The notes beneath the pieces were generated by a model. It had not been told where the DNA came from. It saw only the letters and a program-made list of their open reading frames with translations, and did not search any database. Below are positions 12,631 to 54,425 of a stretch of 56,924 nucleotides of DNA, one piece after another. Source of the DNA: Lachnospiraceae bacterium. Lineage in GTDB: Bacteria > Bacillota > Clostridia > Lachnospirales > Lachnospiraceae. Within the stretch, counting starts at the first letter, position 1; the number at the start of each line of letters is the position of its first letter. Both the position numbers and the translations under genes were made by a program. The stretch spans positions 1 to 56,924 of the forward strand of contig JAAWBG010000079.1 in the NCBI GenBank assembly GCA_022792535.1, in the 5' to 3' direction.

Positions 12631-12800
12631 GCCCATGGTACTTTTAGTGAAAACTTTCTGATCTGATCCTCTCTGCATCTGCCGTAAATCTAAAATTTTT
12701 ATAAAATGAAAGAAAGCCATTTACAGCAAGGTCAACGTTCTGTATGATAAATATATCTTTTGTTCAAAGTACAGCGTCTATGTACAAATTTCCCAAATAG

Positions 12801-12920
12801 ATTAGGGTGTCAAAAGGGTGCGACGCACCCACTCTATACCATATATTGATGTGCAAGCAAGCTTGCAATAGCAATATATGGTATGAGTGCAGCGCCAAAG
12901 GCGCTTTTGACACCCGAATC
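12801..12920. repeat. Cloverleaf-type intergenic repeat, copy 1
   Basis: A full copy of the element also found at 48459 and 54144. The ends pair over about 15 bp (ATTAGGGTGTCAAAAG with CTTTTGACACCCGAAT, one mismatch). Inside are three arms: GGGTGC/GCACCC, a long arm ACTC-ATACCATATATTG pairing with CAATATATGGTATGAGT and capped by GCAAGC/GCTTGC, and GCGCC/GGCGC. It lies between the amidase gene and the palindrome at 13010. No open reading frame is inside. Confidence 0.9.
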
Positions 12921-15882: not shown

Positions 15883-15939
15883 GATTCCAGTGTCAAAAGC
15901 ACCCTTGGCGCTGCGCTGCAGCCTTTTGACACTCGAATC
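15883..15939. repeat. Cloverleaf-type repeat, collapsed copy
   Basis: GATTCCAGTGTCAAAAG at one end and CTTTTGACACTCGAATC at the other reproduce the ends of the full elements at 12801, 48459 and 54144, but only about 20 bp remain between them (GGCGCTGC-type bases). It looks like an internal deletion derivative. The remainder of 15675-16024 holds the nested repeat above and no gene that I can see. Confidence 0.7.
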
Positions 15940-16546: not shown

Positions 16547-16570
16547 AGCGTTAACAGAAGAATATGATTA

Positions 16571-16736
16571 GATAGAGGTTGCGCAATTCATGAGTAATTT
16601 ATCGGATGTGGCAGGCACAGAGGATGATAATGGAAAGGGAAGAGCGCCGAAAGAATTTTATACCTGCAGAAGAATTCTTGGGCATATAATGAATAATTAT
16701 ATGACTGTCATCTTTCACATGGATGGAGCGCTATCA
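16571..16736 (+). ncRNA. Lysine riboswitch (L box) aptamer
   Basis: GATAGAGGTTGCG opens and GGAGCGCTATC closes the P1 helix. Conserved core segments of the L box are visible in order: ATTCATGAGTAATTTATC, GGCAGGCACAG, GGGAAGAGCGCCGAA, the CTTGGGC block, and ACTGTCATCTTTCACATGGATGGAG. The downstream terminator and the following dapA gene agree with control of diaminopimelate/lysine synthesis: lysine binding should favour the terminator and switch dapA off. Confidence 0.95.
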
Positions 16737-16789
16737 TAGATTTTATAAGCAGAGAACATGTTTTTGCAGATGTCAGAATAGAATCTTTC

Positions 16790-26263: not shown

Positions 26264-26607
26264 GGGGTTGTACTGGTTTCGACGGGGGTTGTGAAGCTAT
26301 GGAAGCCATTGGCGGCTCCTGACCGCCTCACCAACGGGAATAATAAATATAAACGCTGAAGATAATTTAGCAATCGCTGCCTAGTTGCAGCAGTCGGCCT
26401 TAGACCACCCACAGTTTAAGATCCCGGCTTCGACGATGTGGGAAACGACGTACGTTAAGCTTTGCGCGTACGGGCGTAGTATGAAGCTACTGAAACCGGA
26501 AGCTTGTCATTAGGCGGCCGGCAGAGGGAATGTCAAATTAATGACTGTAATGGGAGAGGCCATAGTGAATTGACTTTCGGACAGGGGTTCGATTCCCCTC
26601 AGCTCCA
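26264..26607 (+). ncRNA. ssrA: Transfer-messenger RNA (tmRNA)
   Basis: tmRNA with SmpB rescues ribosomes stalled on broken mRNAs and tags the product for degradation. The 5' end GGGGTTGTACTGGTTTCGACGGGG and 3' end GGACAGGGGTTCGATTCCCCTCAGCTCC form the tRNA-like domain; GGGGTTG pairs with CAGCTCC. The tag reading frame ends in codons for NAEDNLAIAA followed by TAG (26352-26384), the typical small-residue degron. The resume codon is not certain. The genome reads A-CTT after the acceptor stem, so CCA must be added after transcription. Confidence 0.97.
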
Positions 26608-26701
26608 CTTAAAGAACTTTGATTTTACAAGGATTGCGGGATTTACCAGGAAACAGTCGGTGTTATTTCGAGTTCAGTTCTCATTAAAATAATTGGAGAA
26701 T

Positions 26702-37816: not shown

Positions 37817-37856
37817 TCCGGAAGTGATACAGAGATGTGTTGCTTCCGGATTTATT
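37817..37856 (+). terminator. Terminator after the MsmK-like gene
   Basis: TCCGGAAG (37817-37824) pairs with CTTCCGGA (37843-37850), followed by TTTATTG. The loop of 18 bases contains partly complementary segments. Confidence 0.75.
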
Positions 37857-37901
37857 GTTCTCTTATAGGAAATTCCTTCGGATTTTCTATAAGAGAACAA
37901 T
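37854..37901. repeat. Hairpin repeat, B family copy 1
   Basis: ATTGTTCTCTTATAG (37854-37868) pairs exactly with CTATAAGAGAACAAT (37887-37901). Between them GAAATTCC-TTCG-GGATTTTC-like bases extend the stem to a TTCG loop. A near-identical unit is present in opposite orientation at 41783, and degenerate copies lie at 48421 and 48612. The following 37902-38025 holds only a GGGGCGGA/TCCGCCTC hairpin. Confidence 0.85.
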
Positions 37902-41780: not shown

Positions 41781-41782
41781 TT

Positions 41783-41822
41783 TTCTCTTATAGGAAATCC
41801 GAAGGAATTTCCTATAAGAGAA
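41783..41822. repeat. Hairpin repeat, B family copy 2 (opposite orientation)
   Basis: TTCTCTTATAGGAAAT (41783-41798) pairs exactly with ATTTCCTATAAGAGAA (41807-41822). The loop CCGAAGGA is the reverse complement of TCCTTCGG in copy 1, so the two copies have opposite polarity and otherwise differ at about one base. Confidence 0.85.
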
Positions 41823-41826
41823 CATG

Positions 41827-48030: not shown

Positions 48031-48458
48031 CAAATTTTTGTACAGTTGTTAAGATATGACGTAGAAAATAGAAAAGAAATGAGGGATAAGATGTTCAGAT
48101 AATCTATTTTGTGTAGAACAGGAACAAAAAAGTTTTTTAAAACAGAAAATGTAAAGAGTTTGCTTGACAGTAAAGATCAAGTGCTTGTTTCTGTACCGAA
48201 ATAGATCATCTGTGCATAAGTAGGATTGCTATCCCTGCAATAAAGACAAATACCGCCATAGTGTATGAACACGTTTTATTGATCAATGCGTCATTCACTG
48301 AATATCAGAAAATTCTGTGGTTTTAGCTGCCCCGGAGATCAATCTGCTTTGGCGATCTGCATGGAAACAGAAGTCTGCTTTCGGAAACAAGCATTTGAGT
48401 TTGAACGGAAGCAGATTTGTTTTATCTTACAGAAAATTCTTTTGGATTTCCTATAAGG
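48031..48458. other. Spacer after the folate operon, no gene seen
   Basis: No supported reading frame is present. Visible are a -35-like TTGACA at about 48165, a long inverted repeat (AAACA...TCTGCTT with AAGCAGA...TGTTT at about 48364-48425) and a degenerate B-family hairpin at 48421-48458 that runs straight into the cloverleaf repeat. Confidence 0.5.
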
Positions 48459-48577
48459 ATTAGGGTGTCAAAAGGGTGCGCCGCACCCGCTCTATCCCAT
48501 ATATTGATGCGCAAACTCGTTTGCAATAACAATATATGGGATGAGCGTAGCACCAAAGGTGCTTTTGACACTCTAAT
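48459..48577. repeat. Cloverleaf-type repeat, copy 2
   Basis: Same layout as at 12801 and 54144, but several paired positions differ in both strands of the stem: GCTC/GAGC instead of ACTC/GAGT, ATCCC/GGGAT instead of ATACC/GGTAT, GCAAAC/GTTTGC instead of GCAAGC/GCTTGC and GCACC/GGTGC instead of GCGCC/GGCGC. It sits within a stretch that also contains degenerate B-family hairpins, upstream of the ABC-F gene. Confidence 0.9.
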
Positions 48578-48611
48578 CCTTTGAGATAAAACATTTATGC
48601 ACACGCAAATG

Positions 48612-52609: not shown

Positions 52610-54115
52610 ATGAACATTAAACGAACGAAGGAAGAGATCAGGAATACCATAGAGGCCTATCTGCAGAAAGATGAGTATGGAGCGTATGAGATTCCATCCA
52701 TACGCCAGCGTCCTATTTTTCTGCTGGGTTCCCCTGGAATCGGAAAGACTCAGATTATGGAACAGATCTCACGGGAATGCGGAATCGGCTTGGTGGCCTA
52801 TACCATCACCCATCACACCAGGCAGAGCGCCATCGGTCTGCCTTTTATCTCGAAAAAGCAGTATGGAGATAGAGAATATGCAGTGACAGAGTATACCATG
52901 AGTGAGATTGTGGGTTCCATTTATGAAAAAATGGAGCAGACAGGATTAAAAGAGGGGATTCTCTTTCTTGATGAAATCAACTGCGTGTCAGAGACATTGG
53001 CCCCGGCCATGCTGCAGTTTTTGCAGTGTAAATCTTTTGGAAACCACAAGATTCCAGAAGGATGGATCATTGTGGCGGCAGGAAATCCCCCGGAATACAA
53101 CAAATCTGTGCGGGAATTTGATGTGGTGACCATGGACCGGGTAAAGAAAATAGAAGTGGAGGCAGACTTTGAGGTGTGGAAGGAATATGCCTATCAGCAG
53201 GGAATTCATGGAGGGGTGATTTCCTATCTGAATACCAGAAAACAAAACTTCTATCAGATGGAAACTACGGTGGACGGCAGGAATTTTGCCACTCCCAGAG
53301 GATGGGAAGATTTATCAGATTTTATCAAGATCTATGAAAAAATGGGGAAAACCGTAGACCGGGAAGTAGTGGCCCAGTACATTCAGTTTCCCAAAATCGC
53401 CAAGGATTTTGCAAATTATCTGGAACTGTATGGTAAATACCAGACAGATTATCAATTGGAAGAGATTTTCCGGGGCAATCTGGATGAGATTCTGTTGAAA
53501 AAGATTGCTCATGCCTCCTTTGACGAACGTCTGAGCGTGTTGGGCCTGATCTTATCAAAAGTCAATGAAGCTTTGAAAAAGGCTGTCCAGTGGGAATCTT
53601 ATATGGAGCGGCTGCAGTCTTATCTGCTGGAATTTAAGGAGCTGACAGAGCAGCCGGAAGGAAACCTGGATGGACAGGAATTGTTTTCAAATGAATGTCA
53701 GAAATTAAATATAGATTATACAAAACAAAAAAGAGCGGAATTGTTAGACAGAGAAGAGGAGAAACAATACCGCAGACTGATTCAGACCATGGAAAGTTTT
53801 CAACAGACTTTGAGAATGGAAGGAATTCATGAAAAAAAGGAATCTTTTCTGCGTGTGCGGGAATTGTTTGAGAAAGAGAACGGCCAATTTGAACAACAGC
53901 AGGATCTGGCTTCTGATGCATTGGAATATGCCTTTGATTTTTTAGAGGGAGCTTTTGGAACCAGTCAGGAAATGGTGATGTTTATCACAGAATTGAATTC
54001 TGATTATTACAGTGTAAAATTTCTGGAGCATTGCGAATGCGAGCGATATTACCAATATAATCGGGAACTGCTCTTTGATGAAAAACGAAAAAAACTATTG
54101 GAACGCATAGAGTAA
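52610..54115 (+). CDS. MoxR-like AAA+ ATPase
   Basis: The 501-residue ATPase has Walker A GSPGIGKTQ near residue 45, Walker B GILFLDEIN near 122, sensor 1 IIVAAGNPPEYNKS and an arginine-bearing VTMDRVKKIEV motif. The C-terminal half is helical (rich in Glu and Gln) and may bind the partner. MoxR-type ATPases work with vWA proteins, and the upstream vWA gene fits. ATG 52610 has only a weak AGTGAAA site; GTG 52598 is an alternative. It is the last gene of the cassette; a cloverleaf repeat follows. Confidence 0.9.
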   Translation: MNIKRTKEEIRNTIEAYLQKDEYGAYEIPSIRQRPIFLLGSPGIGKTQIMEQISRECGIGLVAYTITHHTRQSAIGLPFISKKQYGDREYAVTEYTMSEIVGSIYEKMEQTGLKEGILFLDEINCVSETLAPAMLQFLQCKSFGNHKIPEGWIIVAAGNPPEYNKSVREFDVVTMDRVKKIEVEADFEVWKEYAYQQGIHGGVISYLNTRKQNFYQMETTVDGRNFATPRGWEDLSDFIKIYEKMGKTVDREVVAQYIQFPKIAKDFANYLELYGKYQTDYQLEEIFRGNLDEILLKKIAHASFDERLSVLGLILSKVNEALKKAVQWESYMERLQSYLLEFKELTEQPEGNLDGQELFSNECQKLNIDYTKQKRAELLDREEEKQYRRLIQTMESFQQTLRMEGIHEKKESFLRVRELFEKENGQFEQQQDLASDALEYAFDFLEGAFGTSQEMVMFITELNSDYYSVKFLEHCECERYYQYNRELLFDEKRKKLLERIE

Positions 54116-54143
54116 TCAAGAAAACCTAAAAAATACTATAAAG

Positions 54144-54259
54144 ATTAGGGTGTCAAAAGGGTGCGATGCACCCACTCTATACCATATATTGATGTGCAAG
54201 CTTGCAATAGCAATATATGGTATGAGTGCAGCGCCAAAGGCGCTTTTGACACCCTAATC
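54144..54259. repeat. Cloverleaf-type repeat, copy 3
   Basis: The cleanest copy: GATTAGGGTGTCAAAA pairs perfectly over 16 bp with TTTTGACACCCTAATC. Arms: GGGTGC/GCACCC, ACTC(T)ATACCATATATTG with CAATATATGGTATGAGT, and AGCGCC/GGCGCT. It lies 28 bp after the MoxR gene and may stop or process that transcript. Confidence 0.92.
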
Positions 54260-54301
54260 TATAAATTATAAAATAATTAAAAAGCAAGATGTTACATGTG
54301 T

Positions 54302-54328: not shown

Positions 54329-54425
54329 ATCTGACAGCTATGGATGGCATTTATTTCTAGGGAAGGATAGAAGTAAATGCCTTTTGTATAATACGCAGAG
54401 TCATGCTAGAAACAGGAGGGAAACG

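Follow-up and report, generated by a model that had tools for sequence, protein, structure and literature searches.

A cloverleaf-shaped intergenic repeat of a Lachnospiraceae genome as a MITE family with a probable IS1182-like partner

Copies of the repeat and their insertion sites

The window, that is, the whole stretch of 56,924 nucleotides of a Lachnospiraceae bacterium analysed here, contained one short repeat at all four places where the first-pass annotation had claimed it. A full element of 117 bp lies at 54143..54259 on the + strand, past a gene ending at 54115, and its apical loop has 4 bases fewer than those of the 121-bp copies. The two 121-bp elements lie at 12800..12920 and 48458..48578, also on the + strand; the former shares its subfamily with the 54143 copy, and the latter belongs to a second subfamily. 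The elements had been recognised correctly in the earlier annotation, with the three starts lying one base further left (12800, 48458, and 54143) than was given there. The 17-bp left end of the 54143 copy (54143..54159, + strand) was GATTAGGGTGTCAAAAG, and its 17-bp right end (54243..54259, − strand) has TTGACA in the outward direction. The fourth copy, of 57 bp at 15883..15939, retained its two ends and traces of the small arms but had lost the central arm, which bore out its earlier description as a deletion through the fold. In addition, the window contained a lysine riboswitch and a tmRNA at 16565-16741 and 26264-26610, respectively. The tmRNA was the only call made by ARAGORN in the window, and a tRNA or tRNA-like identity of the repeat was rejected.

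The element is non-coding, measures 117-121 bp, which leaves no room for a transposase, and is bounded by near-perfect inverted ends of 17 bp. The host genome (G000; 3.19 Mb, 150 contigs) gave at least 40 forward BLAST matches spanning most of the element, a lower bound, as 40 of 85 candidates were scored. The end pattern GATTNNNGTGTCAAAAG, with at most one mismatch, occurred 66 + 73 times in this genome compared with 1 + 0 for the reversed-pattern control. An exact 7-bp target duplication was found in 28 of the 38 host copies with both flanks (the other two of the 40 did not have both flanks present), while duplications of 4, 5, 6, 8, 9, 10, or 11 bp were each found in 0-1 of the 38. Flanks of different host copies matched over 7 bp with a frequency of 0.063. 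In the window, the 12800 copy was flanked by the exact duplication CCAAATA and the 48458 copy by a 7-bp duplication with two mismatches (CTATAAG and CTTTGAG), and the 54143 copy showed an adjacent 6-bp direct repeat, TATAAA, with no exact 7-bp duplication. Three copies of genome G000 (L320, L021, and L325) had flanks that did not match each other, yet resembled other target sites, a pattern expected after recombination between copies.

The location of the copies was examined in the 22 of 38 host copies with at least 600 bp on each side, using crude ORF calling. Three of them overlapped an ORF measuring 80-150 aa, and no copy overlapped a longer ORF, so that the earlier statement that the copies lie only between genes held roughly. 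A BLAST match (E ≤0.001), in several cases partial only, was present in 17 of 29 genomes of the genus, including the host. Past the gene ending at 54115, ends were found within 450 bp in none of 29 sister loci from 27 genomes (G022 and G025 contributed two each); 14 of these loci had a recognisable downstream neighbour, which lay within about 300 bp in 5. Likewise, none of ten gaps between folB-folK and the ABC-transporter gene in relatives had both ends, one (L412) showing a single near-match. Furthermore, L379 was a clean empty site, in which the sequence beyond the insertion point was retained. Because of the 7-bp duplications, the ends shared with insertion sequences (described below), and the empty sites in relatives, the repeats are, on sequence evidence, a family of MITEs (non-autonomous DNA transposons), to which the shared ends, the duplications, the dispersal, and the absence at related sites all testify. 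Among the roles offered by the first-pass annotation, that of a MITE substrate was thus the right one, and the family is a marker of recent changes in the genomes of these bacteria.

The symmetrised consensus of the duplications was CTWWWAG, with T-rich and A-rich sides. Half of the host copies (19 of 38) sat in a 17-bp arm (at most 3 mismatches) of a second palindromic repeat, TTTTATCTTATAGGAAA-N10-TTTCCTATAAGATAAAA. Its arms, with at most 2 mismatches, occurred 148 + 146 times in the host genome compared with 2 + 2 for the control and make up about 0.16% of the genome. This repeat has forms of 44 bp and about 63 bp, and in several loci it is followed by a further repeated stretch. The 48458 copy occupies one arm of such a palindrome, the remainder of which lies at 48420..48457 (+ strand), and two unoccupied members of this target family lie at 37856..37899 and 41781..41824. 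The insertions split the target palindrome and duplicate 7 bp. Such a strong choice provides a natural insertion-site system.

A candidate partner insertion sequence

A paired-end pattern search over 61 genomes detected the ends 1863 bp apart three times in genome G026 and 1913 bp apart once in G014, both of them sister species. These insertion sequences carried the same 17-bp end as the left end of the 54143 copy, apart from one base at the right end of the G014 element, and were flanked by the 7-bp duplications TGCATAA, CTATTTT, CTACTGG, and ATATAAT. IS1202/ISDol1, initially considered as a possible partner, was dropped once the G026 element appeared. Each insertion sequence encoded one transposase of 538 or 541 aa, for which IS1182 was the best match; the scores of 126.2 and 133.3 bits were below the NCBIfam IS1182 equivalog cut-off of 270 bits. 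Pfam DUF772 and DDE_Tnp_1_6 were above the cut-off in both transposases, a combination which we take to be the architecture of the IS1182 family. Among 299 genomes sampled from the family, 13 had relatives of the transposases (E ≤1e-60). Moreover, GTCAAAAG was present at one or both expected boundaries in 15 of 21 chosen related transposase loci, in seven of them as GTGTCAAAAG.

The partner and full MITEs hardly co-occurred in one genome, some assemblies being incomplete, and this raises doubt about the partner. No IS1182-like transposase was found in the host genome, and the L088-type transposase had no match in G000, G011, G013, and G015, which are among the genomes richest in ends. Conversely, G026, with three insertion sequences, had no match to the MITE, and G014 had one partial match. 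G021 had many ends together with one related transposase (L196), the latter with different ends. Accordingly, the MITEs may be the remnant of an earlier insertion sequence, or the insertion sequence may be missing from the drafts, or another transposase may be at work. If another transposase sharing the ends moved the element, the IS1182-like one would be coincidental; both the MITE-rich genomes lacking the L088 type and the lack of full MITEs in the genomes with the best partner would fit. However, the 17-bp ends of the insertion sequence are identical, its target duplications are equally long, and among the 30 PF13751 loci examined the exact GTGTCAAAAG end pair occurred only in the two G026 ones (these loci were part of a longer match list and had 1.5-kb flanks, so the far end could be missed). 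A coincidence is accordingly quite improbable in our judgement, and we infer that the IS1182-like transposase mobilises the MITE.

The MITE would thus be moved in trans by the DDE transposase of an IS1182-like insertion sequence, which would recognise the 17-bp end and cut the target with a 7-bp stagger. Insertion would prefer CTWWWAG in A/T-rich intergenic DNA, above all in one arm of the second palindromic repeat. A related choice of target has been described: IS1272, placed in the IS1182 family like the candidate partner here, targets stem-loops or inverted repeats (PMC5678879). It differs in that it replaces the target stem-loop with no duplication (PMC5678879), whereas here the palindrome is split and 7 bp are duplicated. 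Stem-loop replacement of the IS1272 type was absent from the three G026 copies and the G014 element, all of which have 7-bp duplications.

The three-arm fold and its covariation

The fold consists of a 16-bp closing stem, a small arm GGTGC-NNN-GCACC, a long central arm, and a second small arm GCACC-NNN-GGTGC. The minimum-energy DNA fold recovered it on the + strand of each of the three full copies, confirming that they share it, with z values of −9.5 to −11.9. For the two − strands folded, z was −9.0 and −10.9, and in every case none of 200 shuffles was as good. The z of the 57-bp copy was −5.0. The four double changes reported between copies in the earlier annotation were real and affected one base pair each, namely 32-89, 39-83, 95-103, and 58-63 (121-bp numbering). 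They separated two subfamilies only, the 12800 and 54143 copies from the 48458 copy, so that the window alone cannot show repeated compensation, which the wider set below does. Copies mixing both subfamilies also exist (for example, L015 and L018).

Forms of 54 bp with no central arm recurred in G000, G013, G023, and G024, and the 57-bp copy of the window is of the same general kind. Their breakpoint fits two GCG-NN-GCACC direct repeats flanking the central arm. The junction letters varied from copy to copy, which points to recurrent deletions and not to a single mobile subfamily. Three other elements (L075, L295, and L296, of 321, 89, and 86 bp) had 17-bp ends of the same type and unrelated interiors, and the first two bore exact 7-bp duplications. 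A further group (L172, L135, L185, L186, L060, L080, L119, L159, and L141) had the same size, related ends, and long hairpins, the two small arms being absent. The inner z of its scored members was −5 to −13, and it is possibly a sister architecture.

When genome contigs were scanned for the paired core at a spacing of 81-101 bases, at least 101 stretches were obtained. Together with the genus loci, these gave 143 distinct elements, 97 of which chained to the window family by pairwise score; one element put in the group 'other' (L160) was really a family member. A model search took in 100 of the at least 101 scanned loci. The family elements came from loci titled Lachnospiraceae, Herbinix, Mobilitalea sibirica, and Bacillota, among others. 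In 33 representatives, the mean z was −9.9 when the whole element was scored and −6.1 when the central arm alone was; L238 and L143 were weak. The two small arms were GGTGC-NNN-GCACC-like and GCACC-NNN-GGTGC-like, the second becoming a CCCC/GGGG arm in one group, and their opposite polarity was retained in most sequences. Beyond the genus, 7-bp duplications were rarer: in the contig scan, 13 of 39 family elements had an exact one and 17 of 39 had one with at most one mismatch. No 7-bp duplication was seen in 28 elements with the same core, a group hand-assembled as Bacteroidota in which L148 is titled Lachnospiraceae and L175, L178, L183, and L184 had no title shown. The element had no match in phage records, and ten plasmid records had distant matches with identity below 60%.

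For the covariation analysis, RNAalifold on a MAFFT alignment of 33 of the 97 family elements gave 21 pairs only, because the central arm was misaligned. A model built on the gapless genus alignment, to which the structure was supplied manually, took its place. The set comprised 53 distinct elements, namely 43 of about 60 matched elements (scores down to L191) and the genus-alignment rows, with one strand per element, a few rows in reverse polarity, and a mean pairwise identity of 0.69. Our own tree-aware G-statistic with a product correction was used, and the null consisted of 25 redistributions of the substitutions on the tree. This alignment had been fitted to the structure by the model; significance was reached by 14 of 50 structure pairs and by none of 6853 others. 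Along its branches, 87 two-sided and 59 one-sided changes kept the pairing, 96 broke it, and 42 restored it. The two-sided kept changes fell from 87 to 4-7 when the partners were slid by 1-3 columns.

Furthermore, 64 distinct genus elements were aligned pairwise by sequence only. Three of the 50 structure pairs (39-83, 58-63, and 95-103) and none of the 6853 others were significant, and structure pairs accounted for just 4 of the top 20 scores. In 14 gapless sequences, two-sided cells numbered 23 compared with 7.2 after shuffling, and pairs with such cells 9 compared with 4.3; further pair types (21 compared with 20.1) were not above the shuffled value. In the 53-element set, the covarying pairs included 94-104 and 95-103 in the right small arm, which has a 3-base loop, and none in the left small arm. 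In the copy tree, the terminal branches had 23-25 breaking and 28-29 kept changes at interior pairs, with no clear retention of pairing; the internal branches, with few events, had 3-4 breaking, 7-11 kept, and 5-7 restoring. A wider alignment with a covariation test had been proposed earlier, and covariation exceeded the tree-aware null on both the structure-fitted and the sequence-only alignment. The results support a real three-arm fold with conserved pairing.

Constraint on the fold and comparison with known repeats

In a sense RNA, G-U pairs are tolerated and A-C pairs are not. In the cross-lineage interior, losses of Watson-Crick pairs led to G-T in 31.8 events and to A-C in 29.9 (p 0.90), and in the genus set to G-T in 23.4 and to A-C in 14.7 (p 0.26). 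The copies between codirectional genes were oriented at random, six in the same and seven in the opposite direction. The similar numbers of events, together with the random orientation, disfavour a fixed sense-strand RNA, and a constraint at the DNA level or a symmetric mutational process is favoured. Covariation in intergenic repeats alone is no proof of RNA function.

An RNA role would mean that the transcribed cloverleaf protects or processes the neighbouring mRNA, as proposed for NEMIS/Correia and BCR repeats. It would be helped by the placement of 13 of the 22 copies examined between codirectional genes, by a very stable predicted RNA fold, and by the excess of G-T over A-C in the cells of the cross-lineage interior (55 vs 38, a few rows being in reverse polarity), towards which the genus events also lean. 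Similarly, many intergenic repeats lie within mRNA in two strains of B. cereus, 84 of 165 in one and 62 of 155 in the other (PMC3446304). The equal independent interior events and the random orientation to genes argue against it, as do positions that are not in common with relatives. In addition, a scan of the 48458 and 54143 copies gave no intrinsic terminator within either of them; the terminator at 54346-54381 lies 87 bp past the latter. The earlier suggestion of a transcript end consequently found no support. An RNA processing site is conceivable for single transcribed copies, the dedicated sense-strand form being the part disfavoured by the similar G-T and A-C events and random orientation. 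No Rfam family matched the copies at the gathering score, and a search of L001, L008, and L027 with E up to 1 gave one weak miRNA match of 27 bits compared with 140. We regard an RNA function of the fold as unlikely.

The pairing might also be kept by mutation rather than selection, if template switching or gene conversion copied changes from arm to arm. The symmetric G-T and A-C events would fit such a process, and so would the subfamily-mixing copies; the recurrent loss of the central arm in four genomes suggests that the palindrome disturbs replication. On the other hand, covariation extends to the right small arm, whose loop has 3 bases, and the small arms keep their opposite polarity in most sequences, a feature that would be lost if the whole palindrome were corrected. 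These points are not decisive. We consider this origin of the pairing rather doubtful, though a stronger contender than an RNA function. Selection and template-switch repair of palindromes are not separated by these data, so the earlier claim that covariation means selection goes too far; its other part, the conserved pairing, stands.

Taken together, it is likely that the repeats are one MITE family moved by an IS1182-like transposase. Self-folding of the DNA, most likely as a cruciform or as a single strand during replication, may be why the three-arm fold persists, as the fold would join both ends of a piece below the persistence length of DNA. That the arms are kept for such a role in uniting the ends is our inference, and we rate it at somewhat less than an even chance. 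This reading is weakened because fold-less elements move, because 96 changes broke pairs, and because template switching is an alternative. Three small elements with such ends (L125, L154, and L187) had an inner z near 0, yet carried exact 7-bp duplications, so transposition as such does not need the fold. Tentatively, and with less confidence than in the uniting of the ends, the cloverleaf could be a structural code in DNA, read as a cruciform or single strand by the IS1182-like transposase or by the replication machinery. It is similarly speculative that selection for transposition preserved the three arms, two of them small and opposite in polarity, in several lineages despite changes in the letters. 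If true, the donor of this mobile element would be recognised both by its end sequence and by its shape. The nearly strand-symmetric covariation provides a way into the question of whether DNA folding is important for DDE transposition.

Several short repeats of bacteria have been described. A search of published papers found no description of this element, and in a text search for the end sequence none of the matches listed is, by title, on bacterial repeats. According to the excerpt of one source, bacterial repeat elements except CIR have no arms, their two ends forming one stem-loop (PMC2229807). RUP of Streptococcus pneumoniae (107 bp, about 108 copies) is likewise short and intergenic, with IS-like ends and a target duplication, but its proposed partner is IS630-Spn1 and it uses TA sites, whereas 7 bp are duplicated here; the same excerpt mentions no multi-arm fold for it (PMC2229807). 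The Correia/NEMIS repeat of Neisseria is also mobile, with 107-155 bp and a stem-loop transcript; it differs in that the stem-loop is a proposed RNase III substrate, and a cloverleaf is not mentioned in that excerpt (PMC2229807). The BCR repeats bcr1-bcr18 of the Bacillus cereus group are intergenic too; bcr1-bcr3 have been likened to MITEs, and bcr10 and bcr18 have conserved secondary structures, like this element. They differ by their link to a TTTAT motif and their restriction to one species group, and an IS1182-like partner is not mentioned in the portions available of those sources (PMC3446304, PMC6542083). QMITE2 of Coxiella burnetii is also a MITE (about 190 bp) with direct repeats, of 7-9 bp, and a transcript that folds; its TIRs measure 23-29 bp (PMC10969869), and it is likened here by description, not by sequence. 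Compared with these repeats, the present family is ordinary in kind, being a MITE with an IS-type partner where the two are hardly seen together in one genome. The three-arm fold with nearly strand-symmetric covariation and the preference for the second palindromic repeat are unusual.

Outward promoters in the ends were also considered and rejected, as −10-like matches at a distance of 16-18 bp were not above those in shuffled flanks (19 in G000 compared with a shuffled mean of 11.8 and a maximum of 25, and 2 in G013 compared with 3.0). The hexamer TTGACA pointed outward at 73 of 74 host ends and 23 of 42 ends in G013, and a promoter-like match of 11 of 12 was present at 54246-54274.
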